Assembly: GCA_964036045.1 (NCBI GenBank)
Contig: OZ038402.1
Location: forward strand, 11,985,739-12,049,738
Source: Eutreptiella sp. 'Long Island Sound 2002'
Taxonomy: Eukaryota; Euglenozoa; Euglenophyceae; Eutreptiales; Eutreptiaceae
DNA: 64,000 bases
Direction: 5' to 3'
The notes under the pieces are model-generated. The model was not told where the DNA came from, ran no database searches, and worked only from the letters and a program-made list of their open reading frames with translations. This document shows positions 1 to 56,700 of this stretch, piece after piece. The position numbers and the translations under genes were made by a program. Every line of letters begins with the position of its first letter. Positions within the stretch are counted from its first letter, which is position 1.

Positions 1-240
1 TAATACCCGCTCCTGTCACACCCAGAGCCTGATAGGAACCAGCCATGCACCGCGTACCACTCAGTAATACCCGCTCCTGTCACACCCAGAGCCTGATAGG
101 AACCAGCCGTGCACCGCTCACCACTCAGCAATACCCCCTCCTGTCACACCCAGAGCCTGATAGGAACCAGCCATGCACCGCTCACCACTCAGTAATACCC
201 GCTCCTGTCACACCCAGAGCCTGATAGGAACCAGCCGTGC

Positions 241-2060
241 ACCGCTCACCACTCAGTAATACCCGCTCCTGTCATACTCAGAGCCTGATAGGAACCAGCC
301 GTGCACCGCTCACCACTCAGTAATACCCGCTCCTGTCATACTCAGAGCCTGATAGGAACCAGCCGTGCACCGCGTACCACTCAGTAATACCCGCTCCTGT
401 CATACCCAGAGCCTGATAGGAACCAGCCGTGCACCGCGTACCACTCAGTAATACACGCTCCTGTCACACCCAGAGCCTGATAGGAACCAGCCATGCACCG
501 CTCACCACTCAGTAATACCCGCTCCTGTCACACCCAGAGCCTGATAGGAACCAGCCATGCACCGCTCACCACTCAGTAATACCCGCTCCTGTCACACCCA
601 GAGCCTGATAGGAACCAGCCGTGCACCGCTCACCACTCAGTAATACCCGCTCCTGTCATACCCAGGGCCTGATAGGAACCAGCCATGCACCGCGTACCAC
701 TCAGTAATACCCGCTCCTGTCATACCCAGAGCCTGATAGGAACCAGCCGTGCACCGCTCACCACTCAGTAATACCCGCTCCTGTCACACCCAGATCCTGA
801 TAGGAACCAGCCGTGCACCGCTCACCACTCAGTAATACCCGCTCCTGTCATACCCAGAGCCTAATAGGAACCAGCCGTGCACCGCTCTTCACTCAGCAAT
901 ACCCGCTCCTGTCACACCCAGAGCCTGATAGGAACCAGCCGTGCACCGCTCACCACTCAGTAATACCCGCTCCTGTCATACCCAGAGCCTGATAGGAACC
1001 AGCCGTGCACCGCGTACCACTCAGTAATACCCGCTCCTGTCATACCCAGAGCCTGATAGGAACCAGCCGTGCACCGCTCACCACTCAGTAATACCCGCTC
1101 CTGTCACACCCAGAGCCTGATAGGAACCAGCCATGCACCGCTCACCACTCAGTAATACCCGCTCCTGTCACACCCAGAGCCTGATAGGAACCAGCCGTGC
1201 ACCGCTCACCACTCAGTAATACCCGCTCCTGTCATACTCAGAGCCTGATAGGAACCAGCCGTGCACCGCTCACCACTCAGTAATACCCGCTCCTGTCATA
1301 CTCAGAGCCTGATAGGAACCAGCCGTGCACCGCTCACCACTCAGTAATACCCGCTCCTGTCATACCCAGGGCCTGATAGGAACCAGCCGTGCACCGCTCA
1401 CCACTCAGTAATACCCGCTCCTGTCACACCCAGAGCCTGATAGGAACCAGCCGTGCACCGCTCACCACTCAGTAATACCCGCTCCTGTCACACCCAGAGC
1501 CTGATAGGAACCAGCCGTGCACCGCTCACCACTCAGTAATACCCGCTCCTGTCATACTCAGAGCCTGATAGGAACCAGCCGTGCACCGCTCACCACTCAG
1601 TAATACCCGCTCCTGTCATACTCAGAGCCTGATAGGAACCAGCCGTGCACCGCGTACCACTCAGTAATACCCGCTCCTGTCATACCCAGAGCCTGATAGG
1701 AACCAGCCGTGCACCGCGTACCACTCAGTAATACACGCTCCTGTCACACCCAGAGCCTGATAGGAACCAGCCATGCACCGCTCACCACTCAGTAATACCC
1801 GCTCCTGTCACACCCAGAGCCTGATAGGAACCAGCCATGCACCGCTCACCACTCAGTAATACCCGCTCCTGTCACACCCAGAGCCTGATAGGAACCAGCC
1901 GTGCACCGCTCACCACTCAGTAATACCCGCTCCTGTCATACCCAGGGCCTGATAGGAACCAGCCATGCACCGCGTACCACTCAGTAATACCCGCTCCTGT
2001 CATACCCAGAGCCTGATAGGAACCAGCCGTGCATCGCTCACCACTCAGTAATACCCGCTC
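241..2060. repeat. 1280-bp (20 x 64 bp) higher-order duplication, left copy pair
   Basis: Diagnostic variants return exactly 1280 bp later: the CATACTC unit at about 261 and 1541, the ACACGC unit at about 451 and 1731, and the CCCAGGGCC unit at about 661 and 1941. This shows duplication of a block of about 20 units rather than unit-by-unit spread. The outer limits are approximate. Confidence 0.75.
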
Positions 2061-3780
2061 CTGTCACACCCAGAGCCTGATAGGAACCAGCCATGCACCG
2101 CTCACCACTCAGTAATACCCACTCCTGTCACACCCAGAGCCTGATAGGAACCAGCCGTGCACCGCTCACCACTCAGTAATACCCGCTCCTGTCATACTCA
2201 GAGCCTGATAGGAACCAGCCGTGCACCGCGTACCACTCAGTAATACCCGCTCCTGTCATACCCAGAGCCTGATAGGAACCAGCCGTGCACCGCGTACCAC
2301 TCAGTAATACACGCTCCTGTCACACCCAGAGCCTGATAGGAACCAGCCATGCACCGCTCACCACTCAGTAATACCCGCTCCTGTCACACCCAGAGCCTGA
2401 TAGGAACCAGCCATGCACCGCGTAGCACTCCGTAATACCTGCTCCTGTCACACCCAGAGCCTGATAGGAACCAGCCGTGCACCGCGTACCACTCAGTAAT
2501 ACCCGCTCCTGTCACACCCAGAGCCGGATAGGAACCAGCCATGCACCGCGTACCACTCAGTAATACACGCTCCTGTCACACCCAGAGCCTGATAGGAACC
2601 AGCCATGCACCGCGTACCACTCAGTAATACCCGCTCCTGTCACACCCAGAGCCTGATAGGAACCAGCCGTGCACCGCTCACCACTCAGTAATACCCGCTC
2701 CTGTCACACCCAGAGCCTGATAGGAACCAGCCGTGCACCGCTCACCACTCAGCAATACCCGCTCCTGTCACACCCAGAGCCTGATAGGAACCAGCCGTGC
2801 ACCGCTCACCACTCAGTAATACCCGCTCCTGTCACACCCAGAGCCTGATAGGAACCAGCCATGCACCGCGTACCACTCAGTAATACCCGCTCCTGTCACA
2901 CCCAGAGCCTGATGGGAACCAGCCGTGCACCGCTCACCACTCAGTAATACCCGCTCCTGTCATACCCAGAGCCTAATAGGAACCAGCCGTGCACCGCTCA
3001 CCACTCAGCAATACCCGCTCCTGTCACACCCAGAGCCTGATAGGAACCAGCCGTGCACCGCTCACCACTCAGTAATACCCGCTCCTGTCACACCCAGAGC
3101 CTGATAGGAACCAGCCATGCACCGCGTAGCACTCCGTAATACCCGCTCCTGTCACACCCAGAGCCTGATAGGAACCAGCCGTGCACCGCGTACCACTCAG
3201 TAATACCCGCTCCTGTCACACCCAGAGCCTGATAGGAACCAGCCATGCACCGCGTACCACTCAGTAATACCCGCTCCTGTCATACCCAGAGCCTGATAGG
3301 AACCAGCCGTGCATCGCTCACCACTCAGTAATACCCGCTCCTGTCACACCCAGAGCCTGATAGGAACCAGCCATGCACCGCTCACCACTCAGTAATACCC
3401 ACTCCTGTCACACCCAGAGCCTGATAGGAACCAGCCGTGCACCGCTCACCACTCAGTAATACCCGCTCCTGTCATACCCAGAGCCTGATAGGAACCAGCC
3501 GTGCACCGCGTACCACTCAGTAATACCCGCTCCTGTCATACCCAGAGCCTGATAGGAACCAGCCGTGCACCACGTACCACTCAGTAATACACGCTCCTGT
3601 CACACCCAGAGCCTGATAGGAACCAGCCATGCACCGCGTACCACTCAGTAATACCCGCTCCTGTCACACCCAGAGCCTGATAGGAACCAGCCGTGCACCG
3701 CGTACCACTCAGTAATACCCGCTCCTGTCACACCCAGAGCCTGATAGGAACCAGCCGTGCACCGCTCACCACTCAGTAAT

Positions 3781-5900
3781 ACCCGCTCCTGTCACACCCA
3801 GAGCCTGATAGGAACCAGCCATGCACCGCTCACCACTCAGTAATACACGCTCCTGTCACACCCAGAGCCTGATAGGAACCAGCCATGCACCGCGTACCAC
3901 TCAGTAATACCCGCTCCTGTCACACCCAGAGCCTGATAGGAACCAGCCGTGCACCGCGTACCACTCAGTAATACCCGCTCCTGTCACACCCAGAGCCTGA
4001 TAGGAACCAGCCGTGCACCGCTCACCACTCAGTAATACCCGCTCCTGTCACACCCAGAGCCTGATAGGAACCAGCCATGCACCGCGTACCACTCAGTAAT
4101 ACACGCTCCTGTCACACCCAGAGCCTGATAGGAACCAGCCGTGCACCGCGTACCACTCAGTAATACACGCTCCTGTCACACCCAGAGCCTGATAGGAACC
4201 AGCCATGCACCGCTCACCACTCAGTAATACCCGCTCCTGTCACACCCAGAGCCTGATAGGAACCAGCCATGCACCGCGTAGCACTCCGTAATACCTGCTC
4301 CTGTCACACCCAGAGCCTGATAGGAACCAGCCGTGCACCGCGTACCACTCAGTAATACCCGCTCCTGTCACACCCAGAGCCTGATAGGAACCAGCCATGC
4401 ACCGCGTACCACTCAGTAATACACGCTCCTGTCACACCCAGAGCCTGATAGGAACCAGCCATGCACCGCGTACCACTCAGTAATACCCGCTCCTGTCACA
4501 CCCAGAGCCTGATAGGAACCAGCTGTGCACCGCGTACCACTCAGTAATACCCGCTCCTGTCACACCCAGAGCCTGATAGGAACCAGCCGTGCACCGCGTA
4601 CCACTCAGCAATACCCGCTCCTGTCACACCCAGAGCCTGATAGGAACCAGCCATGCACCGCTCACCACTCAGTAATACACGCTCCTGTCACACCCAGAGC
4701 CTGATAGGAACCAGCCATGCACCGCGTACCACTCAGTAATACCCGCTCCTGTCACACCCAGAGCCTGATAGGAACCAGCCGTGCACCGCGTACCACTCAG
4801 TAATACCCGCTCCTGTCACACCCAGAGCCTGATAGGAACCAGCCGTGCACCGCTCACCACTCAGTAATACCCGCTCCTGTCACACCCAGAGCCTGATAGG
4901 AACCAGCCGTGCACCGCGTACCACTCAGTAATACCCGCTCCTGTCATACCCAGAGCCTGATAGGAACCAGCCGTGCACCGCGTACCACTCAGTAATACCC
5001 GCTCCTGTCACACCCAGAGCCTGATAGGAACCAGCCGTGCACCGCTCACCACTCAGTAATACCCGCTCCTGTCACACCCAGAGCCTGATAGGAACCAGCC
5101 ATGCACCGCTCACCACTCAGTAATACACGCTCCTGTCACACCCAGAGCCTGATAGGAACCAGCCATGCACCGCGTACCACTCAGTAATACCCGCTCCTGT
5201 CACACCCAGAGCCTGATAGGAACCAGCCGTGCACCGCGTACCACTCAGTAATACCCGCTCCTGTCACACCCAGAGCCTGATAGGAACCAGCCGTGCACCG
5301 CTCACCACTCAGTAATACCCGCTCCTGTCACACCCAGAGCCTGATAGGAACCAGCCATGCACCGCGTACCACTCAGTAATACACGCTCCTGTCACACCCA
5401 GAGCCTGATAGGAACCAGCCGTGCACCGCGTACCACTCAGTAATACACGCTCCTGTCACACCCAGAGCCTGATAGGAACCAGCCATGCACCGCTCACCAC
5501 TCAGTAATACCCGCTCCTGTCACACCCAGAGCCTGATAGGAACCAGCCATGCACCGCGTAGCACTCCGTAATACCTGCTCCTGTCACACCCAGAGCCTGA
5601 TAGGAACCAGCCATGCACCGCGTACCACTCAGTAATACCCGCTCCTGTCACACCCAGAGCCTGATAGGAACCAGCCATGCACCGCGTACCACTCAGTAAT
5701 ACACGCTCCTGTCACACCCAGAGCCTGATAGGAACCAGCCATGCACCGCGTACCACTCAGTAATACCCGCTCCTGTCACACCCAGAGCCTGATAGGAACC
5801 AGCTGTGCACCGCGTACCACTCAGTAATACCCGCTCCTGTCACACCCAGAGCCTGATAGGAACCAGCCGTGCACCGCGTACCACTCAGCAATACCCGCTC
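3781..5900. repeat. 1280-bp (20 x 64 bp) higher-order duplication, right copy pair
   Basis: Rare variants recur at a 1280-bp offset: GCACTCCGTAATACCTGC at about 4281 and 5561, and AGCTGTGCACC at about 4521 and 5801. The intervening order of CGCGTACC and CGCTCACC units also largely matches. The block has the same size as the left pair, so 20 units looks like a preferred amplification size in this array. Limits are approximate. Confidence 0.75.
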
Positions 5901-6545
5901 CTGTCACACCCAGAGCCTGATAGGAACCAGCTGTGCACCGCGTACCACTCAGTAATACCCGCTCCTGTCATACCCAGAGCCTGATAGGAACCAGCCATGC
6001 ACCGCGTACCACTCAGTAATACACGCTCCTGTCACACCCAGAGCCTGATAGGAACCAGCCGTGCACCGCGTACCACTCAGCAATACCCGCTCCTGTCACA
6101 CCCAGAGCCTGATAGGAACCAGCCGTGCACCGCGTACCACTCAGTAATACCCGCTCCTGTCATACCCAGAGCCTGATAGGAACCAGCCGTGCACCGCTCA
6201 CCACTCAGTAATACCCGCTCCTGTCACACCCAGAGCCTGATAGGAACCAGCCGTGCACCGCTCACCACTCAGTAATACCCGCTCCTGTCATACCCAGAGC
6301 CTGATAGGAACCATCCGTGCACCGCGTACCACTCAGTAATACCCGCTCCTGTCACACCCAGAGCCTGATAGGAACCAGCCGTGCACCGCGTACCACTCAG
6401 TAATACCCGCTCCTGTCATACCCAGAGCCTGATAGGAACCAGCCGTGCACCGCTCACCACTCAGTAATACCCGCTCCTGTCACACCCAGAGCCTGATAGG
6501 AACCAGCCATGCACCGCTCACCACTCAGTAATACCCGCTCCTGTC

Positions 6546-9500
6546 CGCTGGAGTTTCAATTCAACTATTCCGCTGGAGTTTCAATTCAACTATTCCGCTG
6601 GAGTTTCAATTCAACTATTCCGCTGGAGTTTCAATTCAACTATTCCGCTGGAGTTTCAATTCAACTATTCCGCTGGAGTTTCAATTCAACTATTCCGCTG
6701 GAGTTTCAATTCAACTATTCCGCTGGAGTTTCAATTCAACTATTCCGCTGGAGTTTCAATTCAACTATTCCGCTGGAGTTTCAATTCAACTATTCCGCTG
6801 GAGTTTCAATTCAACTATTCCGCTGGAGTTTCAATTCAACTATTCCGCTGGAGTTTCAATTCAACTATTCCGCTGGAGTTTCAATTCAACTATTCCGCTG
6901 GAGTTTCAATTCAACTATTCCGCTGGAGTTTCAATTCAACTATTCCGCTGGAGTTTCAATTCAACTATTCCGCTGGAGTTTCAATTCAACTATTCCGCTG
7001 GAGTTTCAATTCAACTATTCCGCTGGAGTTTCAATTCAACTATTCCGCTGGAGTTTCAATTCAACTATTCCGCTGGAGTTTCAATTCAACTATTCCGCTG
7101 GAGTTTCAATTCAACTATTCCGCTGGAGTTTCAATTCAACTATTCCGCTGGAGTTTCAATTCAACTATTCCGCTGGAGTTTCAATTCAACTATTCCGCTG
7201 GAGTTTCAATTCAACTATTCCGCTGGAGTTTCAATTCAACTATTCCGCTGGAGTTTCAATTCAACTATTCCGCTGGAGTTTCAATTCAACTATTCCGCTG
7301 GAGTTTCAATTCAACTATTCCGCTGGAGTTTCAATTCAACTATTCCGCTGGAGTTTCAATTCAACTATTCCGCTGGAGTTTCAATTCAACTATTCCGCTG
7401 GAGTTTCAATTCAACTATTCCGCTGGAGTTTCAATTCAACTATTCCGCTGGAGTTTCAATTCAACTATTCCGCTGGAGTTTCAATTCAACTATTCCGCTG
7501 GAGTTTCAATTCAACTATTCCGCTGGAGTTTCAATTCAACTATTCCGCTGGAGTTTCAATTCAACTATTCCGCTGGAGTTTCAATTCAACTATTCCGCTG
7601 GAGTTTCAATTCAACTATTCCGCTGGAGTTTCAATTCAACTATTCCGCTGGAGTTTCAATTCAACTATTCCGCTGGAGTTTCAATTCAACTATTCCGCTG
7701 GAGTTTCAATTCAACTATTCCGCTGGAGTTTCAATTCAACTATTCCGCTGGAGTTTCAATTCAACTATTCCGCTGGAGTTTCAATTCAACTATTCCGCTG
7801 GAGTTTCAATTCAACTATTCCGCTGGAGTTTCAATTCAACTATTCCGCTGGAGTTTCAATTCAACTATTCCGCTGGAGTTTCAATTCAACTATTCCGCTG
7901 GAGTTTCAATTCAACTATTCCGCTGGAGTTTCAATTCAACTATTCCGCTGGAGTTTCAATTCAACTATTCCGCTGGAGTTTCAATTCAACTATTCCGCTG
8001 GAGTTTCAATTCAACTATTCCGCTGGAGTTTCAATTCAACTATTCCGCTGGAGTTTCAATTCAACTATTCCGCTGGAGTTTCAATTCAACTATTCCGCTG
8101 GAGTTTCAATTCAACTATTCCGCTGGAGTTTCAATTCAACTATTCCGCTGGAGTTTCAATTCAACTATTCCGCTGGAGTTTCAATTCAACTATTCCGCTG
8201 GAGTTTCAATTCAACTATTCCTCTGGAGTTTCAATTCAACTATTCCGCTGGAGTTTCAATTCAACTATTCCGCTGGAGTTTCAATTCAACTATTCCGCTG
8301 GAGTTTCAATTCAACTATTCCGCTGGAGTTTCAATTCAACTATTCCGCTGGAGTTTCAATTCAACTATTCCGCTGGAGTTTCAATTCAACTATTCCGCTG
8401 GAGTTTCAATTCAACTATTCCGCTGGAGTTTCAATTCAACTATTCCGCTGGAGTTTCAATTCAACTATTCCGCTGGAGTTTCAATTCAACTATTCCGCTG
8501 GAGTTTCAATTCAACTATTCCGCTGGAGTTTCAATTCAACTATTCCGCTGGAGTTTCAATTCAACTATTCCGCTGGAGTTTCAATTCAACTATTCCGCTG
8601 GAGTTTCAATTCAACTATTCCGCTGGAGTTTCAATTCAACTATTCCGCTGGAGTTTCAATTCAACTATTCCGCTGGAGTTTCAATTCAACTATTCCGCTG
8701 GAGTTTCAATTCAACTATTCCGCTGGAGTTTCAATTCAACTATTCCGCTGGAGTTTCAATTCAACTATTCCGCTGGAGTTTCAATTCAACTATTCCGCTG
8801 GAGTTTCAATTCAACTATTCCGCTGGAGTTTCAATTCAACTATTCCGCTGGAGTTTCAATTCAACTATTCCGCTGGAGTTTCAATTCAACTATTCCGCTG
8901 GAGTTTCAATTCAACTATTCCGCTGGAGTTTCAATTCAACTATTCCGCTGGAGTTTCAATTCAACTATTCCGCTGGAGTTTCAATTCAACTATTCCGCTG
9001 GAGTTTCAATTCAACTATTCCGCTGGAGTTTCAATTCAACTATTCCGCTGGAGTTTCAATTCAACTATTCCGCTGGAGTTTCAATTCAACTATTCCGCTG
9101 GAGTTTCAATTCAACTATTCCGCTGGAGTTTCAATTCAACTATTCCGCTGGAGTTTCAATTCAACTATTCCGCTGGAGTTTCAATTCAACTATTCCGCTG
9201 GAGTTTCAATTCAACTATTCCGCTGGAGTTTCAATTCAACTATTCCGCTGGAGTTTCAATTCAACTATTCCGCTGGAGTTTCAATTCAACTATTCCGCTG
9301 GAGTTTCAATTCAACTATTCCGCTGGAGTTTCAATTCAACTATTCCGCTGGAGTTTCAATTCAACTATTCCGCTGGAGTTTCAATTCAACTATTCCGCTG
9401 GAGTTTCAATTCAACTATTCCGCTGGAGTTTCAATTCAACTATTCCGCTGGAGTTTCAATTCAACTATTCCGCTGGAGTTTCAATTCAACTATTCCGCTG

Positions 9501-11330
9501 GAGTTTCAATTCAACTATTCCGCTGGAGTTTCAATTCAACTATTCCGCTGGAGTTTCAATTCAACTATTCCGCTGGAGTTTCAATTCAACTATTCCGCTG
9601 GAGTTTCAATTCAACTATTCCGCTGGAGTTTCAATTCAACTATTCCGCTGGAGTTTCAATTCAACTATTCCGCTGGAGTTTCAATTCAACTATTCCGCTG
9701 GAGTTTCAATTCAACTATTCCGCTGGAGTTTCAATTCAACTATTCCGCTGGAGTTTCAATTCAACTATTCCGCTGGAGTTTCAATTCAACTATTCCGCTG
9801 GAGTTTCAATTCAACTATTCCGCTGGAGTTTCAATTCAACTATTCCGCTGGAGTTTCAATTCAACTATTCCGCTGGAGTTTCAATTCAACTATTCCGCTG
9901 GAGTTTCAATTCAACTATTCCGCTGGAGTTTCAATTCAACTATTCCGCTGGAGTTTCAATTCAACTATTCCGCTGGAGTTTCAATTCAACTATTCCGCTG
10001 GAGTTTCAATTCAACTATTCCGCTGGAGTTTCAATTCAACTATTCCGCTGGAGTTTCAATTCAACTATTCCGCTGGAGTTTCAATTCAACTATTCCGCTG
10101 GAGTTTCAATTCAACTATTCCGCTGGAGTTTCAATTCAACTATTCCGCTGGAGTTTCAATTCAACTATTCCGCTGGAGTTTCAATTCAACTATTCCGCTG
10201 GAGTTTCAATTCAACTATTCCGCTGGAGTTTCAATTCAACTATTCCGCTGGAGTTTCAATTCAACTATTCCGCTGGAGTTTCAATTCAACTATTCCGCTG
10301 GAGTTTCAATTCAACTATTCCGCTGGAGTTTCAATTCAACTATTCCGCTGGAGTTTCAATTCAACTATTCCGCTGGAGTTTCAATTCAACTATTCCGCTG
10401 GAGTTTCAATTCAACTATTCCGCTGGAGTTTCAATTCAACTATTCCGCTGGAGTTTCAATTCAACTATTCCGCTGGAGTTTCAATTCAACTATTCCGCTG
10501 GAGTTTCAATTCAACTATTCCGCTGGAGTTTCAATTCAACTATTCCGCTGGAGTTTCAATTCAACTATTCCGCTGGAGTTTCAATTCAACTATTCCGCTG
10601 GAGTTTCAATTCAACTATTCCGCTGGAGTTTCAATTCAACTATTCCGCTGGAGTTTCAATTCAACTATTCCGCTGGAGTTTCAATTCAACTATTCCGCTG
10701 GAGTTTCAATTCAACTATTCCGCTGGAGTTTCAATTCAACTATTCCGCTGGAGTTTCAATTCAACTATTCCGCTGGAGTTTCAATTCAACTATTCCGCTG
10801 GAGTTTCAATTCAACTATTCCGCTGGAGTTTCAATTCAACTATTCCGCTGGAGTTTCAATTCAACTATTCCGCTGGAGTTTCAATTCAACTATTCCGCTG
10901 GAGTTTCAATTCAACTATTCCGCTGGAGTTTCAATTCAACTATTCCGCTGGAGTTTCAATTCAACTATTCCGCTGGAGTTTCAATTCAACTATTCCGCTG
11001 GAGTTTCAATTCAACTATTCCGCTGGAGTTTCAATTCAACTATTCCGCTGGAGTTTCAATTCAACTATTCCGCTGGAGTTTCAATTCAACTATTCCGCTG
11101 GAGTTTCAATTCAACTATTCCGCTGGAGTTTCAATTCAACTATTCCGCTGGAGTTTCAATTCAACTATTCCGCTGGAGTTTCAATTCAACTATTCCGCTG
11201 GAGTTTCAATTCAACTATTCCGCTGGAGTTTCAATTCAACTATTCCGCTGGAGTTTCAATTCAACTATTCCGCTGGAGTTTCAATTCAACTATTCCGCTG
11301 GAGTTTCAATTCAACTATTCCGCTGGAGTT
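6546..11330. repeat. 25-bp tandem satellite array (191 full units plus 10 bp)
   Basis: A 25-bp unit beginning CGCTGGAGTTTCAATTC and ending TATTC repeats in strict register from 6546 to the N gap. The only difference seen is one base, G to T at 8222 (unit 68). It abuts the 64-bp array at 6545/6546 with no transition zone, and the two units share no evident similarity. Because 25 is not a multiple of 3 and no frame of the unit has a stop, it creates a long open frame on the + strand with a 25-residue period. That frame is incidental. The right edge is hidden by the gap. Confidence 0.98.
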
Positions 11331-48825: not shown

Positions 48826-48859
48826 AATCTTAGCTCAGCCGTGCCTGAGCTTTGGTTTT
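48826..48859 (+). repeat. Left 34-bp terminal direct repeat with 7-6-7 dyad
   Basis: This sequence is identical over 34 bp to 53714-53747, with 4888 bp between the two starts. It contains the dyad AGCTCAG-CCGTGC-CTGAGCT at 48832-48851. Two inverted 7-bp arms around a 6-bp spacer is the general layout of core sites used by tyrosine recombinases. It joins the satellite directly on its left, just after TTCTCG. The two A bases at the edge could belong to either side. Confidence 0.9.
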
Positions 48860-49004
48860 GCTCGTCGGGTGGTGTGTGTGTGCGCATGCGTGTGTGCAGT
48901 GAGCCTCTGTACTTGTAGAGCATTTTTGCTTGTTGCCAGCAGACCATAGGTGGTCACACGTAGAGCCTGCTCCGTGACACTTTGGAACGACCCGGTCTGT
49001 GAAT
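48860..49004 (+). promoter_or_regulatory. 5' leader of the retrotransposon
   Basis: This is 145 bp of non-coding sequence between the terminal repeat and the gag ATG. It contains a 27-bp strictly alternating purine-pyrimidine tract (48872-48898) with the palindrome CGCATGCG inside, and a small inverted repeat GACCA-TAGG-TGGTC at 48942-48955. A promoter would be expected in or just upstream of this leader because the element starts here. No TATA box or known promoter motif can be pointed to, so the regulatory role is inferred from position only. Confidence 0.5.
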
Positions 49005-50054
49005 ATGTCAGTTGACGATTTTGCCGTCTTCGCGAAGGGAACAATTTGTTCCCAGTTCATTGATAGCGTTCCCATGCTGGAGATAGCCAGGGCTGCCTCG
49101 CAGGTGGAGATGAAGCTGTCGGTGCTGCTGGAACGCAGGGCAGAGTGGGAGGCTAGTTTCGTCGCCAAGTACGGAATCGAGTTGGGGGAGGTGGGGCTGG
49201 TGAAGATGATCGCCTCGTATTGCGTCATGGCCCAGTGCGACCTGGATGTGGCGTCGCTGGGCTTTGTCAAGGTGGAGGTACCACCCCAACAGCCGCAGAC
49301 GGTGTCGCCAGAGCTTCTGGAGCTCAAGCAGTTGGTTCAGGGACAGGCCCTTGTGATGGAGGGCCTGCGCAAGCAGTTGGAGGCGGTCAGTGCCAAGGCC
49401 GAGGCGGAGTCCAAGAGGAAAATGGCGAAGGTCCCGCCGCTGTGTAAAGCGGAAATCGTGAAGGTGAGGGAGTTGGATTCTAAGCCCCAGTGGGTCTTCG
49501 CCAGCCTTCTCGCGCTGTCCACCTTGTTGTGGCGCAGGGAGGTGCCCCAACACGAATACGTCTCCAAGTACAAGGACAAGGAAAAGTTCACGGACGCCAT
49601 CCTGGACGAGCTGGCGCCGGTGGTGGACGCGGACTCCGCGGACACGGAAGTGTGGCAACTGGAGTCCATGGATGATGACGAACTTACGCGCCTTCGGAGT
49701 TTTGTCCAGGCGGTCTGGACGTTCACGGTGACTAGCCTGTCGGCATACAGGGGCAAGAAGGGCTTGGACCCCGGACCGGTCGGTGAGGGGTCGGACGCGG
49801 CCGAGGATGCGTCCGATGTGCCTGTGCTGTCCGCTGGTTGTACGGGAGCGGCGGAGGAGGAGGTGGTGGGGCGGCGGCTGCAAGCCATGAAGGGTAAGTT
49901 CCGCGTTGAGGGGGGCCGCCGCCTGTACACCGCCAAGCCGGGTGCCGAGCCGATGGACGTCACCAATGCCCCGGTGACAGCGTGTCGGGCATGCAAGAAC
50001 GCTGGGAGGGGAGTGAAACGGCATTGGTTTCACGAGTGCCCCGGCTTTGGCTGA
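49005..50054 (+). CDS. Gag-like protein (ORF1), 349 aa
   Basis: This is the first ORF of the element and the probable nucleocapsid protein that would package element RNA. The ATG at 49005 is preferred over an in-frame GTG two codons upstream because this is a eukaryotic gene. Residues about 101-140 are rich in L, E, K, Q and A in a heptad-like pattern, suggesting a coiled coil for self-assembly. Residues about 205-228 and 261-286 are acidic. The C-terminus has a zinc-knuckle-like cluster, C327-x2-C330-x9-H340-x4-C345, ending in PGFG. The spacing is longer than the retroviral CCHC box (C-x2-C-x4-H-x4-C). The frame ends in a single TGA at 50052-50054, after which the same frame stays open through the recombinase. 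Identification as Gag rests on position, coiled coil and knuckle, not on strong sequence identity. Confidence 0.75.
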   Translation: MSVDDFAVFAKGTICSQFIDSVPMLEIARAASQVEMKLSVLLERRAEWEASFVAKYGIELGEVGLVKMIASYCVMAQCDLDVASLGFVKVEVPPQQPQTVSPELLELKQLVQGQALVMEGLRKQLEAVSAKAEAESKRKMAKVPPLCKAEIVKVRELDSKPQWVFASLLALSTLLWRREVPQHEYVSKYKDKEKFTDAILDELAPVVDADSADTEVWQLESMDDDELTRLRSFVQAVWTFTVTSLSAYRGKKGLDPGPVGEGSDAAEDASDVPVLSAGCTGAAEEEVVGRRLQAMKGKFRVEGGRRLYTAKPGAEPMDVTNAPVTACRACKNAGRGVKRHWFHECPGFG

Positions 50055-50066
50055 TGGGGAAGCTGC
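50046..50066 (+). promoter_or_regulatory. In-frame TGA between gag and YR: candidate readthrough site
   Basis: The gag frame stops at TGA (50052-50054) in the context GGC TGA TGG GGA. The next 494 codons of the same frame are open and encode the recombinase. An ATG overlapping the stop (TGATG, 50054-50056) could allow reinitiation, but that frame ends at 50197 without any domain. Termination suppression would make a Gag-YR fusion. A nonsense mutation in this copy is the competing explanation. Confidence 0.45.
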
Positions 50067-51539
50067 CCCATCCGGCCCATCCCTCCCGAGCCCCGGGGGG
50101 CCTTGGTGGTTCTCGGACCGTCGGACTTCCGGGATGGCGAGGACGTGGTCTGGCGCCTGGTGTGGGCAGCGTGGAGACGGATATGGAAGGAGGATGAGAT
50201 CACCTCCGTGGACGCCCTGCAGGCATCCTCCTGGGCAAAAAGCACCATGGGTACGTATTGTACCCACTTCCGCAAGATGGCCCTCTGGGTGGGCTACACG
50301 CCCACATCCGAGCTTGAACAAGCGGCGTGCCGCTACATTTTCCAGCTATGGGGACTGGGGTACTCGGGAAGCTCCCTCAAGGTCGCAGTATCGGCGTTCC
50401 GGGCGCTGGAGGACATGGGATGGCTGCCCGCGTTCGTCAGTCGCCGGGTCTGGCGCTGTGCCAAGTGGGCGCCCACGGAGCCGGCCCTACGGCCCTACGC
50501 AGGTTTGGACGACCTCCGCAACTTCGCGCTGGCTTGCACGGAGCGACCGCAGTGGACCGTCTATGGGATGGCAGTCCTGGCATTCACCTGCCTTCTGCGG
50601 GTGGGTGAGGCCGCGCCCCTCCGTCGGGGGGGATCCCGGTGTCGGGGATTGGCGTTCCGCACGGTCAAGGTGGCGCCGCGCATCGTGCGCAGGCGACTCG
50701 GGAAGTATGCCCAAGAGTGGCTGGGCTGGCTCGATGCCACGGGGGCCACGTCTGCTGTCGTCGGAGCGCAATTCTGTCCGCAGGGACCAGCTTTCATGCA
50801 GTCGGTCATGGCTGCCGCGTTGGGGGGCAGCGACAACCCCCACGCCAGGTGGCACGCATGGAGGCGAGGGGGCTCCGCGGCCCTGCGATGGTTGGGGCTG
50901 CCCATCAAGTGGCTGGCTTGGTGGGGGCGGTGGCTTTCGGAGACGGTGGCAGTCCACTACGCCGACGCGCCCGACGACTTCGTCGTCACGACCGAGGCTG
51001 TCCTCCCCTGGCCCCCTGACAACCATGCAGGAGAGTTCGTTTGGCGCGCCGTGTCCCTCCGGGACGTTTTCCCGAAGGAGCTCCTGGAGCTCTGTGCCCC
51101 TGATGCCGATGAGCCCCCACAATGGGGAGGTGACGGGGATGGGTCGGCAGGAGGTCGGGGTGGATCGTGCCCTGGGGAGTCCGCGAGTCCTGCCGCTGCG
51201 GGAGCTGCTGGGAGGGAGGACCGGGCTGGCGCACGTGACCCGGGGGCCCCTCCGGCCCTTACGGCTGTTGAGGGGTCCTCAGGACGCGGGCGCCGGCCGC
51301 GGGGAGACGGGGGGGGGGAAGTCATTGATGTGGATGCAGACCCCCCACCTGCCTCCGCAGCAGGCTCCTCCATCAGGCGGCTGCGCATCGCGGCCCGCAG
51401 GACGGGTGAGGTCGCGTCCGTCTTGGGCAAGCGGAAGGCCGCGGGCCCGGCCAGGATTGTGGGTGCGGCTGCCCGAACGGCAATTTCCCGTCGCGTCGGA
51501 GCTGGGTCAGTGGGTGCGGGAGCGCCTTCGGACCGGTGA
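50055..51539 (+). CDS. Tyrosine recombinase (integrase) of the retrotransposon, open for 494 codons after the gag TGA
   Basis: This enzyme would insert circular cDNA by breaking and rejoining DNA through a covalent tyrosine link. Numbering from the TTG codon at 50103 (478 aa to the stop), the N-terminal core-binding region lies at about 35-130. Catalytic residues are R166 (in LLRVGEA), H251 and R254 (HAWR), W277 and nucleophile Y286 (codon 50958-50960). The R254-W277 and W277-Y286 spacings of 23 and 9 match the family, so the active site looks intact. The first in-frame ATG is at 50247, inside the core-binding region, so a start there would remove its first helix. This favours expression by readthrough from gag. 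The tail after about residue 335 is G/A/P-rich, with EVIDVDAD at 406-413 and a basic GKRK at 442-445. That tail overlaps the RT frame. Frame and TGA stop (51537) are clear. Confidence 0.9.
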   Translation, partial: WGSCPIRPIPPEPRGALVVLGPSDFRDGEDVVWRLVWAAWRRIWKEDEITSVDALQASSWAKSTMGTYCTHFRKMALWVGYTPTSELEQAACRYIFQLWGLGYSGSSLKVAVSAFRALEDMGWLPAFVSRRVWRCAKWAPTEPALRPYAGLDDLRNFALACTERPQWTVYGMAVLAFTCLLRVGEAAPLRRGGSRCRGLAFRTVKVAPRIVRRRLGKYAQEWLGWLDATGATSAVVGAQFCPQGPAFMQSVMAAALGGSDNPHARWHAWRRGGSAALRWLGLPIKWLAWWGRWLSETVAVHYADAPDDFVVTTEAVLPWPPDNHAGEFVWRAVSLRDVFPKELLELCAPDADEPPQWGGDGDGSAGGRGGSCPGESASPAAAGAAGREDRAGARDPGAPPALTAVEGSSGRGRRPRGDGGGEVIDVDADPPPASAAGSSIRRLRIAARRTGEVASVLGKRKAAGPARIVGAAARTAISRRVGAGSVGAGAPSDR

Positions 51540-52254
51540 GTGGGACGCCTGGTTGTGCTCCCTGCGGGCTTGTCTGCCCCGCGCACCGCCTGGTTTACTG
51601 GAGCGTCGCCTGTTGCAGTTTCTGGAGTGGGGCAGTGAAGCTGCCCGTGATCTCAGACAGCCGGAGTTTCTGCGAGCCTTGGCTGTGGCTTTGTCCTCAT
51701 TTAGCCCTGAGGTTTGGGAGTCACTCTTGCATGATTCGACGTCGCCCAAATTGCTTATGCAGCGTATCAGGGAGGAGGTATTGGCGCGGGGTTTGGGGCC
51801 GGTGGGGCGTGTGGATATCCCCCGCGAGGTCTGGGATAGTTGTGTGCCGGACGGCTTCGCAGAATTGGTAGGCAGGCAGTTTTCTGGGATAATTCCCCCG
51901 TCGGATGAGGCGGTGGTCATGATGAGGGCATTGCGGGACCAGGGTTTGCTTTTCCCCCTGCCGCCGGGGTCACCTGGGCCCAATGGGGGTGTTTTTGCGA
52001 TACCCAAGACGGAGGAGAAGTGCAGTTTGATTGTCAATCTGGTGCCCCTTAATGCGGAGATGCGGTCTCGGCCGGAGAAGTTCTCCCTCCCCTCTGTGGA
52101 GGTGTTGGCCCTTTTGGCGCAGGTGGCACAGCAAGGGTCCTCCTTTTTCCTCCCCTCTTTTTATGCCCGAGCGCGTTGCATGAGGCCGGTGTGGGATATT
52201 CTGTCCCTGCCGGGGGGGGGGGGGAAGAGCTGTGCATGTGCCACATCGACCTGA
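51103..52254 (+). CDS. Reverse transcriptase, N-terminal part (fingers), frame-disrupted
   Basis: The frame (position modulo 3 = 1) is open across the whole YR region, but only its later part looks like real protein. The start at ATG 51103 (alternative ATG 51109) is a proposal. It would overlap the end of YR by 437 nt; a +1 shift near the YR stop is the alternative. From the proposed start, residues 297-302 read VFAIPK and 309-317 read LIVNLVPLN. These correspond to the RT fingers motifs written V.PK and LD.R.LN in DIRS-type enzymes. The frame then runs into G13 (52212-52224) and a TGA at 52252, just after catalytic motif A would begin. Motif A and the rest continue in the next frame. The product would copy element RNA into DNA only if the two parts are joined by frameshifting. 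Otherwise this copy is broken. Confidence 0.7.
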   Translation: MPMSPHNGEVTGMGRQEVGVDRALGSPRVLPLRELLGGRTGLAHVTRGPLRPLRLLRGPQDAGAGRGETGGGKSLMWMQTPHLPPQQAPPSGGCASRPAGRVRSRPSWASGRPRARPGLWVRLPERQFPVASELGQWVRERLRTGEWDAWLCSLRACLPRAPPGLLERRLLQFLEWGSEAARDLRQPEFLRALAVALSSFSPEVWESLLHDSTSPKLLMQRIREEVLARGLGPVGRVDIPREVWDSCVPDGFAELVGRQFSGIIPPSDEAVVMMRALRDQGLLFPLPPGSPGPNGGVFAIPKTEEKCSLIVNLVPLNAEMRSRPEKFSLPSVEVLALLAQVAQQGSSFFLPSFYARARCMRPVWDILSLPGGGGKSCACATST

Positions 52255-53525
52255 GTAATTGCTTTTGGTCACTTCAGCTGCCGCGCGAGTTCTGGGGGGC
52301 CTTTCGCGTCTCGGATGGAGAGGGGGGGGTGTTGGCTTTCCGGTGCTTGCCCTTTGGGTGGAAGTACAGCCCCCTCCTGTGCCAGCGGGTGTTAGAGGGT
52401 CTGGTGGCCGGCGCGGGGCTGTTGGGGGTGCTGGTTTTAATTTACTTGGATGATGTCCTGGTTGTGGGGCGCGGCCGCGCGCGTGTGCGAGAGCAGACGG
52501 CAAGGGCGGCGGAGGCGTTGCGCCGTGCAGGTGCTGTAGTCAGCCCAAAGAGTACGTTAGAGCCTGTGCAGCGGCTGGTGTGGCTGGGGAAGGATATTGA
52601 TTTGCAGGGGGGGGAGGTGCGGACTGCTGGCAACGCGTGGGAAGCTCTGTTTGCGCATTGGTTGAGGTTGTCTGTGGGACCCTGTAGGGTAAAACGGCTG
52701 CAGCAGTTCTTGGGGCGGGCACAGTGGATATGTCGCCCGGGTTCTGGGCACAGTCCGCACCTGTCTGGTGTGTGGGCTCATGTGCTCTGGGCGCCCCCCC
52801 GGCTGCCGTTTACCCCAGTGCGTTTGCTTAAGTCTATGTGCGTGGCGTGCGTGCTTGCCAGGAGGCAATGGTCAGTGGTGTCCCTCCCCAGGGTGGTGAA
52901 GCGATCGCCGTTGGTTGTTTACGTCGACGCGGCGCTGGACGCGGGTGAATACCGGCTGGGCCTGTTTTCGATGGATGTGGGTTCTCGATCGGTTGTGCCC
53001 GCGGAGCAACCGCCCAACCAGCAGTGTGCGGAGGCTGCCGCGCTGCTCTGGGGCTTGAAGCTCATCCTCAATGTAGGCGTTCGGGAGGCCCATTTGTTTG
53101 GGGATAATGCGGCGGCGCTAGTGCAGTTCCTTCGGTGTAAAGCCAAGGTGGGGCGTAAATTCCAGCAGTCCATTCTGAAGCGTTTCCGCTACCTGTGGGC
53201 GTCGTGCCCAGGCTTCACGGTATATATGCACTGGGTGCGTGGTTCACATAATCCCGCTGATCCTATCAGTAGGTTGAGTGACAACTTCAATGGAGATCTG
53301 GGTTTGGCGCGCGAGGTGGCGGCGCGCAGGGTTGGGGATCTCTGGGCCTTTCCCGATAGGCGCACGGTTTTTTTGTGGACCCTGGGGGTGCCTATGGGGC
53401 CCTTTGTTCTGCCGCATTCGTGGAGAGCGGGCCTGTGGTCCCCGGGGGGTGGTGAAGGGGGGGCGGAGTTCCACGAGGTTTTTTTGCAGTACCGCTTGGA
53501 GGAGTCGGTGGGTGCAATGACTTGA
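52176..53525 (+). CDS. Reverse transcriptase palm plus RNase H (C-terminal part of pol)
   Basis: This frame has no ATG of its own at the start; numbering is from the TTG at 52176 (449 aa), and real coding probably begins after the G13 run. RT motif A is HIDLSNCFW with catalytic D25 (codon 52248-52250). Motif B-like LPFGWKYSP is at 58-66. The YLDD box is at 90-93 (52443-52454), and the thumb follows. RNase H follows with D251 (VVYVDAAL), E286 (CAEAAAL), D310 (FGDNAAAL), H358 and D362 (GSHNPADPISR), giving the full D-E-D-D set in DIRS-like arrangement. About 87 residues follow with no recognisable methyltransferase domain. The stop is TGA at 53523. The enzyme would make cDNA and remove the RNA template. 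It depends on joining to the upstream fingers segment. Confidence 0.9.
   Translation: MHEAGVGYSVPAGGGGEELCMCHIDLSNCFWSLQLPREFWGAFRVSDGEGGVLAFRCLPFGWKYSPLLCQRVLEGLVAGAGLLGVLVLIYLDDVLVVGRGRARVREQTARAAEALRRAGAVVSPKSTLEPVQRLVWLGKDIDLQGGEVRTAGNAWEALFAHWLRLSVGPCRVKRLQQFLGRAQWICRPGSGHSPHLSGVWAHVLWAPPRLPFTPVRLLKSMCVACVLARRQWSVVSLPRVVKRSPLVVYVDAALDAGEYRLGLFSMDVGSRSVVPAEQPPNQQCAEAAALLWGLKLILNVGVREAHLFGDNAAALVQFLRCKAKVGRKFQQSILKRFRYLWASCPGFTVYMHWVRGSHNPADPISRLSDNFNGDLGLAREVAARRVGDLWAFPDRRTVFLWTLGVPMGPFVLPHSWRAGLWSPGGGEGGAEFHEVFLQYRLEESVGAMT
52212..52224 (+). other. G13 run at the RT frame change
   Basis: Thirteen consecutive G lie between the RT fingers (frame 1) and motif A (frame 0). A -1 shift here joins the two halves. 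The junction could lie anywhere from about 52130 to 52224, because both frames are open there. Candidate causes are a homopolymer length error in the assembly, a disabling indel, or programmed slippage on the G run. Confidence 0.65.
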
Positions 53526-53713
53526 GGGTGTGGCGTGCGTTGCGCATGGGAGCCGCTGGGTCTCAGACCTGCGCCGGGGGGGGGGGGGGGGGGGGGTTAT
53601 GCGGCAGTTTGGCATGAACGAGACCCACGAGGAGGCGGCACACTGACGAGATGTGCCACAGGAGACGTGCGTGTTTTGCCTCGTGTTTGCGTGTTTGCTT
53701 GTGGTTTTAGCAA
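53526..53713 (+). other. 3' untranslated region of the retrotransposon
   Basis: This is 188 bp of non-coding sequence between the RNase H stop and the right terminal repeat. It contains a run of 21 G (53576-53596). An 8-bp inverted repeat, TGGGTCTC at 53557-53564 and GAGACCCA at 53620-53627, encloses the run. The last 50 bp are GT-rich. No AATAAA signal is present. No second copy of this region is found beyond the right repeat, so a complete split-direct-repeat structure (A1 ... B1-A2-B2) is not seen. The G-run length may be unreliable in the assembly. Confidence 0.6.
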
Positions 53714-53747
53714 AATCTTAGCTCAGCCGTGCCTGAGCTTTGGTTTT
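53714..53747 (+). repeat. Right 34-bp terminal direct repeat with 7-6-7 dyad
   Basis: This is identical to 48826-48859, including the dyad (arms 53720-53726 and 53733-53739, spacer CCGTGC 53727-53732). It passes directly into the 11-bp satellite at CTCGG. One site on a 4888-bp circle recombining with an identical target site would produce exactly this pair. Confidence 0.9.
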
Positions 53748-56700
53748 CTCGGAAAATTCTCAGAAAATTCTCGGAAAATTCTCGGAAAATTGACGGAAAA
53801 TTCTCGGAAAATTCTCGGAAAATTCTCGGAAAATTCTCAGAAAATTCTCGGAAAATTCTGAGAAAATTCTCGGAAAATTCTCGGAAAATTCTCAGAAAAT
53901 TCTCAGAAAATTCTCGGAAAATTCTCGGAAAATTCTCGGAAAATTCTCGGAAAATTCTCGGAAAATTCTCGGAAAATTCTCGGAAAATTCTCGGAAAATT
54001 CTCGGAAAATTGACGGAAAATTCTTGGAAAATTCTCGGAAAATTCTCGGAAAATTGACGGAAAATTCTCGGAAAATTCTCGGAAAATTCTCGGAAAATTC
54101 TCGGAAAATTCTCGGAAAATTCTCGGAAAATTCTCGGAAAATTCTCAGAAAATTCTCGGAAAATTGACGGAAAATTCTCGGAAAATTCTCGGAAAATTCT
54201 CTGAAAATTCTCGGAAACCTCTCAATAAATTCTCGGAAAATTTTCGGAAAATGCTCGGAAAATTCTCGAAAAATTCTCGGAAAATTCTCGGAAAATTCTC
54301 GGAAAATTCTCGGAAAATTCTCAGAAAATTCTCGGAAAATTCTCGGAAAATTGACGGAAAATTCTCGGAAAATTCTCGGAAAATTCTCGGAAAATTCTCA
54401 GAAAATTCTCGGAAAATTCTGAGAAAATTCTCGGAAAATTCTCGGAAAATTCTCAAAAAATTCTCGGAAAATTCTCGGAAAATTCTCGGAAAATTCTCGG
54501 AAAATTCTCAGAAATTCTCGGAAAATTCTCGGAAAATTCTCGGAAAATTCTCGGAAAATTCTCGGAAAATTCTCGGAAAATTCTCGGAAAATTCTCGGAA
54601 AATTCTCGGAAAATTCTCAGAAAATTCTCGGAAAATTCTCGGAAAATTGACGGAAAATTCTCGGAAAATTCTCGGAAAATTCTCGGAAAATTCTCAGAAA
54701 ATTCTCGGAAAATTCCCAGAAAATTCTCGGAAAATTCTCGGAAAATTCTCAGAAAATTCTCAGAAAATTCTCGGAAAATTCTCGGAAAATTCTCGGAAAA
54801 TTCTCGGAAAATTCTGGGAAAATTCTCGGAAAATTGACGGAAAATTCTCGGAAAATTCTCAGAAAATTCTCGGAAAACTCTCGGAAAATTCTCGGAAAAT
54901 TCTCGGAAAATTCTCGGAAAATTCTCGGAAAATTCTCGGAAAATTCTCGGAAAATTCTCGGGAAATTCTCAGAAAATTCTCAGAAAATTCTCGGAAAATT
55001 CTCGGAAAATTCTCGGAAAATTCTCGGAAAATTCTCGGAAAATTCTCGGAAAATTCTCGGAAAATTCTCGGAAAATTCTCGGAAAATTCTCGGAAAATTC
55101 TCGGAAAATTCTCGGAAAATTCTCGGAAAATTCTCGGAAAATTCTCGGAAAATTCTCGGGAAAATCTCGGAAAATTCTCGGAAAATTCTCGGAAAATTCT
55201 CAGAAAATTCTCGGAAAATTCTCGGAAAATTCTCGGAAAATTCTCGGAAAATTCTCGGAAAATTCTCGGAAAATTCTCGGAAAATTCTCGGAAAATTCTC
55301 GGAAAATTCTCGGAAAATCCTCGGAAAATTCTCGGAAAATTCTCGGGAAAATCTCGGAAAATTCTCGGAAAATTCTCGGAAAATTCTCGGAAAATTCTCG
55401 GAAAATTCTCGGAAAATTCTCGGAAAATTCTCGGAAAATTCTCGCAAAATTCTCGGAAAATTCTCGGAAAATTCTCGGAAAATTCTCGGAAAATTCTCGG
55501 AAAATTCTCGGAAAATTCTCGGAAAATTCTCGGAAAATTCTCGGAAAATTCTCGGAAAATTCTCGGAAAATTCTCGGAAAATTCTCGGAAAATTCTCGGA
55601 AAATTCTCGGAAAATTCTCGGAAAATTCTCAGAAAATTCTCAGAAAATTCTCGGAAAATTCTCGGAAAATTCTCGGAAAATTCTCGGAAAATTGACGGAA
55701 AATTCTCGGAAAATTCTCGGAAAATTCTCGGAAAATTCTCGGAAAATTCTCGGAAAATTCTCGGAAAATTCTCGGAAAATTCTCGGAAAATTCTCGGAAA
55801 ATTCTCGGAAAATTCTCGGAAAATTCTCGGAAAATTCTCAGAAAATTCTCAGAAAATTCTCGGAAAATTCTCGGAAAATTCTCGGAAAATTCTCGGAAAA
55901 TTCTCAGAAAATTCTCGGAAAATTCTCGGAAAATTCTCGGAAAATTCTCGGAAAATTCTCGGAAAATTCTCGGAAAATTCTCGGAAAATTCTCGGAAAAT
56001 TCTCGGAAAATTGACGGAAAATTCTCGGAAAATTCTCAGAAAATTCTCGGAAAATTCTCGGAAAATTCTCGGAAAATTCTCGGAAAACTCTCAGAAAATT
56101 CTCGGAAAATTCTCGGAAAATTCTCGGAAAATTCTCGGAAAATTCTCGGAAAATTCTCGGAAAATTCTCGGAAAATTCTCGGAAAATTCTCGGAAAATTC
56201 TCGGAAAATTCTCGGAAAATTCTCGGAAAATTCTCGGAAAATTCTCGGAAAATTCTCGGAAAATTCTCAGAAAATTCTCAGAAAATTCTCGGAAAATTCT
56301 CGGAAAATTCTCGGAAAATTCTCGGAAAATTCTCAGAAAATTCTCGGAAAATTCTCGGAAAATTCTCGGAAAATTCTCGGAAAATTCTCGGAAAATTCTC
56401 GGAAAATTCTCGGAAAATTCTCGGAAAATTCTCGGAAAATTGACGGAAAATTCTCGGAAAATTCTCAGAAAATTCTCGGAAAATTCTCGGAAAATTCTCG
56501 GAAAATTCTCGGAAAACTCTCAGAAAATTCTCGGAAAATTCTCGGAAAATTCTCGGAAAATTCTCGGAAAATTCTCGGAAAATTCTCGGAAAATTCTCGG
56601 AAAATTCTCGGAAAATTCTCGGAAAATTCTCGGAAAATTCTCGGAAAATTCTCGGAAAATTCTCGGAAAATTCTCGGAAAATTCTCGGAAAATTCTCGGG

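Follow-up and report, generated by a model that had tools for sequence, protein, structure and literature searches.

A stretch of 64,000 nucleotides from the genome of Eutreptiella sp. 'Long Island Sound 2002' (contig OZ038402.1, positions 11,985,739 to 12,049,738; hereafter the window) carries at positions 48826-53747 an element that we identify, with a probability of about nine in ten, as a 3'-truncated tyrosine recombinase (YR) retroelement with split direct repeats. Such an element has one A repeat (A1) at its 5' end, genes for a gag-like protein, a YR and a reverse transcriptase-RNase H (RT/RH), and the series B1-A2-B2 at its 3' end. A sequence-only reading of the window had observed that both element ends share 34 bp containing the dyad AGCTCAG-CCGTGC-CTGAGCT, which is correct, and had proposed short att-like ends in place of split repeats, which is not. 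The 34-bp repeats are not natural element ends; they are the start of an A repeat of about 121 bp, and the right one is shortened. Where B meets A, the dyad lies within a larger nested structure that can fold into a hairpin. The split-repeat YR retroelement type with gag-YR-RT/RH order is already known.

To our knowledge, the step from complementary DNA (cDNA) to integrated copy in split-repeat YR retroelements has been modelled but seldom put to the test. In four families a nested dyad whose letters are unrelated lies at the element edge, which makes it a concrete candidate for an attachment structure that may parallel that of integrons. If true, a folded site would explain the B-A junction that is carried within the element. 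Taken alone, the repeats noticed at first suggest a lox-like system, which the data do not support.

Split direct repeats and the truncated copy

The 34-bp end repeat, AATCTTAGCTCAGCCGTGCCTGAGCTTTGGTTTT, is exact at 48826-48859 and 53714-53747 and is maximal on both sides. The inner dyad (20 bp; 48832-48851 in A1, plus strand) has no sites in the window other than these two when as many as 3 mismatches are allowed, as against a mean of 0 in 100 dinucleotide shuffles; when the 28-mer around it was shuffled by letter, 300 of 200,000 shuffles yielded a perfect 7-bp stem with a loop of 3-8 nt. The genome-wide searches covered the 2.28-Gb assembly by exact patterns, which miss diverged 34-mers and N-masked stretches. 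A 74-bp left-end probe returned 647 candidates, and the best 40 of the 647, which were scored, were all exact. The 25-bp B1-A2 border GGTTTTAGCAAAATCTTAGCTCAGC, present in the window copy, has 221 exact places (114 + 107; the reversed control has 0), with positions taken for the first 100.

Intact copies of this family (family 1) have the architecture A1 (about 121 bp), open reading frames (ORFs), B1 (about 94 bp), A2 and B2, so that the sequence-only reading's own check, the termini of other copies, yielded split repeats. Both A1 and A2 are present in seven of 20 fetched stretches (L009-L015), six of them with a complete B2 and one (L010) stopping inside B2; the other 13 have a single end within the cut or are without A2 (L027, L028). 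A1 and A2 differ by at most one mismatch across 121 bp in all six copies measured, the distance from the start of A2 to the end of B2 is 273-274 bp, and the six complete copies are 5.1-6.5 kb long. The traits of the split-repeat YR class seen here are the series A1 and B1-A2-B2, of which the window copy itself is without the A2 end and B2, together with reverse transcriptase and RNase H.

In the window copy, A1 (48826-48946, plus strand, about 121 bp) forms the true 5' end, a start point shared by 16 other left ends, and its first 34 bp are the repeat noticed at first. B1 (53622-53715, plus strand, about 94 bp) terminates in AGC-AAAA; intact copies repeat it at their 3' end as B2. The B1/A2 border, of the type expected in a circle, lies with its nested dyad at 53709-53747 (plus strand), and its outer right arm, TTTTGCT, stops after TTTT. 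What is left of A2 (53714-53747, plus strand) is the first 34 of about 121 bp, after which intact copies run on GCTCGTCGGG... through the rest of A, a spacer and B2. Genome-wide, the exact 34-mer is followed by a letter other than G at a single place, the right end of the window copy.

These results bear on the model in which a circle with one 34-bp site integrates at a pre-existing 34-bp site in the array, crosses over in the 6-bp core and, on excision, leaves a solo 34-bp scar. The model draws on the two exact 34-bp end repeats, each with its 7-6-7 dyad, but we give it next to no chance: every other exact 34-mer has a following G and none stands as a solo scar, intact copies have split repeats, the insertion point's satellite paralogues within the window lack the 34-mer, and the targets that were read differ apart from AA(A). 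Both outcomes that the sequence-only reading had named as refuting it, a lack of solo sites and split-repeat termini in other copies, were found.

The element is flanked on either side by an 11-bp satellite, TCGGAAAATTC, whose left part, with higher-order repeats and paralogues of the insertion point, occupies 11531-48825 (Tandem Repeats Finder). Higher-order paralogues of the left-flank satellite run on into right-flank sequence. The best of them, at 43285, agrees with the left 300 bp to 99.7% and fully (100%) with the right 200 bp, and its offset is 40; since two A are left on the left side, this offset implies that about 38 bp of satellite are missing, which is our best estimate and not the sole one. 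At the joint itself (53747..53748), which has a 2-bp TT microhomology, the element is short of its last 240 bp (274 minus 34) and the satellite of about 38 bp, and a single deletion is the simplest account; we infer that this loss followed insertion.

Some details of the right end and target fit this account less well. The right-flank offset differs between paralogues (among 35, compared over 120 bp, it is 40 in 17, 7 in 10, 29 in 6 and another value in 2). The paralogues' 5 A favour CTCGAAAAA|TCTT, against the observed CTCGAA|TCTT, and the exact ancestral target is uncertain. Long satellite arrays are also difficult to assemble, and the joint was judged from the assembly, so that it may be an assembly artefact in the satellite and the actual copy may end normally in B2. 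We regard an artefact as very unlikely, the flanking satellite being collinear with the best paralogue save for the 38 bp or so.

Other arrangements were noted in passing. The copy in L027 ends directly at B, without A2 and B2. An A-B element of about 198 bp with no internal genes lies in a 156-bp tandem array (L028:6504-6701, minus strand). Two exact B-A borders stand 297 bp apart on contig C7 (13971675 and 13971972), as if by a nested insertion at the B2 end. In the window, satellites with 64-bp and 25-bp units (1-11330) adjoin the 11-bp array.

Junctions and the nested dyad at the B/A border

All 16 fetched left ends of family 1 (L016-L026 excluded) have at least AA (2 to 5 A) before TCTTAGC, as does the window copy; the frequency of AA in the flanks is 0.075. 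The right ends, readable in 23 of 27 fetched (not in L010, L016 and L017, which have no complete B2, nor in the N-masked L039), read AGC-AAAA in 20, AGC-AAAAA in 2 and AGC-AAA in 1 before the target. Targets have AA(A) in common and are otherwise dissimilar. Two empty sites were found by eye in neighbouring tandem units, CAC-AAA-CTG for L028 and GTC-AAA-TAT for L034/L035, and in each the two halves join without loss or duplication. Family 1 insertion at these two sites, both in tandem arrays, was without target duplication. Junctions and empty sites together place the exchange in the A-run at the B/A border, outside the dyad centre CCGTGC. Four of the 16 left flanks, the window apart, consist largely of tandem repeats (L014, L015, L028, L034).

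The proposal of site-specific circle integration is accordingly upheld in part. Recombination at a circle junction without target duplication fits, whereas the 34-bp site and a crossover in CCGTGC fail, since every end that was read (16 on the left, 23 on the right) lies outside the supposed recombinase core. In the DIRS1 model, a 3-bp motif at the circular junction recombines with the same motif in the genome and the target is not duplicated (PMC3266345), and exchange in the A-run agrees with this short-motif model.

When the border is joined, the end of B can pair with A beyond the inner dyad and add an outer stem. The family 1 border reads AGCAAAA-TCTT-AGCTCAG-CCGTGC-CTGAGCT-TTGG-TTTTGCT. 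Counterparts with other letters occur in three further families. Family 2 (P0009 lineage) has 64-70% DNA identity to family 1 at the 5' end, with 6 of 10 stretches matched by blastn, and 7 of the 10 have an inner dyad of the type TAGATCA-CGTTC-TGATCTA at the corresponding position; its border as a type is GCTAAA-TCT-TAGATCA-CGTTC-TGATCTA-TGG-TTTAGC. The real family 2 borders number two, with an imperfect inner arm in L054 and a shorter outer arm in L047; L055 has no A repeat. Family 3 (P0070 RT, 41% identical) has the border AGACCAAA-ATGA-GGTTTGC-CATGA-GCAAACC-CAAG-TTTGGTCT, and family 4 (P0111 RT, 34%) has GTGTGAA-CTC-CTGTCTGCCC-CTGTTTTTCT-GGGCGGACAG-TAG-TTCACCAC, in which the pairing includes a bulge and a G-T pair (one of each). 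For family 4 the expectation had been written down in advance and was borne out in part: the nested dyad, the short spacers and AA at the border were found.

Folded as single-stranded DNA, the borders gave z scores of -3.85 for family 1, -3.00 and -3.63 for family 2, -5.51 and -4.08 for family 3 and -5.84 for family 4, the segments of families 1-3 having been picked after the pairing was seen. Perfect nested 6+6 arms were present in 6 of 2651 70-nt tiles from 15 fetched loci, all of them the family 1 border, in a scan that missed some known borders and permitted loops shorter than that of family 4. The ends of the other families were also read. In family 2, all six left ends begin T(C/T)TTAG and B2 ends in AAA in both copies (L054, L047); the one family 3 right end (L058) is CCAAA|CAG; and family 4 has two left ends (GGAAA, CCAC) and one right end (GTGTGAA|CTCC). 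The edge of the outer arm is the edge of the element in families 1, 2 and 4 and at the one family 3 right end. These data support the conclusion that the dyad is not due to chance, that it adjoins the apparent crossover and that it has counterparts with other letters in three further families.

Among the best candidates scored, the P0070 and P0111 YR retroelement lineages coexist in many copies that are 97-100% alike, and the older P0009-type lineage has copies mostly with stops. Family 4 (L063, L065) includes a copy without B2 and with a flanking duplication of about 75 bp, which points to a different insertion route.

A candidate attachment structure and its alternatives

In the proposed mechanism, a cDNA circle would exist and its joined B-A junction (...AGC-AAAA-TCTTAGC...) would recombine, through the YR, with a target AA(A), producing target-AA|TCTT on the left and AGC-AAAA|target on the right, with no target duplication. 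The window copy would have inserted in this manner into an 11-bp satellite unit and would later have lost everything from letter 35 of A2 to the end of B2, and about 38 bp of satellite with it, so that 34 bp of A now stand at either end. As part of a nested hairpin that needs B and A side by side, the dyad may be the attachment structure of the YR. Because the outer stem arises only at the joined B/A, the hairpin could mark the joined circle. We suggest tentatively, at less than even odds, that the attachment site of split-repeat YR retroelements is a single strand folded much as in integrons: the hairpin would mark a finished cDNA circle (or the B1-A2 copy inside the element), and at the A-rich edge of the hairpin the YR would exchange one strand with a very short genomic match, which in family 1 could be any AA.

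For an integron attC site, a very short shared motif in the partner suffices. The attC site has the same layout of outer arms, unpaired central spacer, inner arms and terminal loop; its sequence is poorly conserved and its structure conserved, as here; and its strand exchange is in the outer (R) box beside the spacer, as the apparent exchange here is in the outer arm beside the spacer (PMC2727003). A nested stem with an unpaired spacer at the crossover is seen in four families, in family 2 with imperfect or short arms only. As to the extra-helical bases of attC, there is one bulge in family 4 and none was seen in families 1-3. The attC site belongs to a gene cassette, whereas the structure here, predicted by folding of the sequence, belongs to a eukaryotic retroelement. 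The attC-like layout suggests, without proof, that the YR may recognize a folded single strand. Among the open-licence PMC matches listed, judged by titles, abstract starts and term counts and in two cases by passages, we found none that connects YR retroelements of the split-repeat type with an attachment site of hairpin or attC-like form, which does not prove that there is none.

Several observations count against these interpretations. None of the six family 2 left flanks ends in AA, so that the AA rule is shown for family 1 only, and the left flank of the family 4 copy L065, which carries a target duplication, ends in AC. The dyad is lacking in three family 2 stretches (L048-L050). The advance expectation for family 4 failed on the inner arm (10 vs about 7), on the loop (10 vs 5-6) and on the tail, where about 1.7 kb and an ORF separate A2 from B2; B2 was seen in one of two copies. 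Strictly perfect 6+6 arms are present in families 1 and 3 and in neither of the two family 2 copies, one of which has 5+5 arms. Covariation in the inner dyad is weak; between families 2 and 1 one pair is changed on both sides, which 111 of 500 shuffles equal. Because of the flanks in family 2 and of the prediction for family 4, which failed in part, we are slightly less confident both of the identification of the element and of recognition of a folded strand.

The nested dyad may instead act as RNA, as a hairpin of the genomic RNA for packaging, for priming of reverse transcription or for translation control. The ends are probably transcribed, pairing retained despite changed letters suits RNA as well as DNA, and the loop length differs between families. 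An RNA role leaves unexplained why the outer arm exists only at the B-A join and why its edge is the element end at the junctions, and the RNA of A1 by itself is no more stably folded than shuffled sequence (z -0.28); we hold it to be somewhat unlikely. Less probable still is that the dyad belongs to an ordinary double-stranded YR site with inverted half-sites around the crossover. Such sites are usual for YRs, but with 8-bp arms around the crossover the best half-site symmetry in families 1-4 is 5, 5, 5 and 3 of 8, equalled in 422, 536, 935 and 1972 of 2000 shuffles, the family 2 string having been put together from different copies. As shuffles do as well, symmetry of half-sites in double-stranded DNA was rejected for the crossover.

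Coding content and relatives

The window copy has, in this order, a gag-like, a YR-like and an RT/RH ORF. ORF1 (48999-50054, plus strand) is gag-like, with a C-terminal C-x2-C...H...C motif found by eye at 49983-50039 and no Pfam match. ORF2 (50103-51539, plus strand) probably encodes the tyrosine recombinase, by its R...HxxR...Y pattern and its place in the gene order. In an alignment of homologues (14 rows, several truncated; counted by eye), the R box is present in 12 of 14, HxxR in 10 and the tyrosine in 9. This assignment, and with it the identification of the element, is weakened in that Pfam and PDB searches with ORF2 gave no match and that an AlphaFold model was too poor for use (mean predicted local distance difference test score 34.8), so that profile, PDB and structure searches brought no confirmation. 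ORF3 (51472-53525, plus strand) encodes the reverse transcriptase-RNase H (Pfam matches above the cut-off to RVT_1, E=3.4e-11, and RVT_3, E=2.4e-5). It is in two frames in the window copy, with a shift near the G-run at 52212-52224, and a 670-aa relative, P0033, covers both frame parts.

Longer copies (L009, L010, L013, L014, L015, L027), in which RNase H and B1 are 0.7-1.3 kb apart, have a fourth ORF; it encodes about 170 aa and is Arg-rich at the N-terminus. This segment is missing from the window copy and from L011/L012. The one such protein that was scanned had no Pfam match. No methyltransferase domain matched above the Pfam cut-off in pol or in the fourth ORF; a TP_methylase line was far below its cut-off, and a diverged domain could escape. 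Viral and prokaryote contigs searched for exact copies of the 20-bp dyad, and viral contigs searched with the RT, yielded no relative, and the profile search found no named one.

Comparison with described groups was made by architecture. Ngaro elements share A1-[ORFs]-B1A2B2, a YR (a probable one here) and the lack of a methyltransferase domain, and isolated AB repeats have been reported for them. Their order is gag, RT/RH, YR, whereas the YR here (50103-51539) precedes the RT (51472-53525) (PMC8547959, PMC9210276). The gene order here does not fit Ngaro. PAT elements have split repeats in common with the element here (PMC4157794, PMC3266345). DIRS1 shares the order gag-YR-pol (PMC3266345), whereas its repeats are inverted and those here are direct (PMC4157794, PMC3266345). 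Membership in PAT or DIRS1, with which Kangaroo elements were grouped in the comparison, is not supported, as no match above the Pfam cut-off to the methyltransferase that marks PAT/DIRS1 was found in pol or the fourth ORF.

The nearest counterparts in layout are the VIPER/TATE elements of kinetoplastids, which also have Gag-like, YR and RT/RH as first, second and third ORF and the repeats A1...B1-A2-B2 (PMC6681497) and, according to PMC3266345, likewise no methyltransferase domain. The element here matches this set of gag-YR-RT/RH, split repeats and no methyltransferase in its architecture, the YR by motif. A short A-B derivative stands beside VIPER as SIRE in Trypanosoma cruzi (PMC6681497), as the L028 element does here. 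The text of PMC6681497 makes no mention of hairpins or palindromes. VIPER/TATE have been described as confined to Kinetoplastida (PMC9210276). Unlike them, the element here has a fourth ORF in its longer copies, and, unlike their hosts, the host here has tandem light-harvesting polyproteins. Such polyproteins occur in euglenids, dinoflagellates and chlorarachniophytes, and by themselves they make a euglenid host likely. The light-harvesting domain was found in the best 150 of 2608 candidates, which were scored, many of them in long tandem frames.

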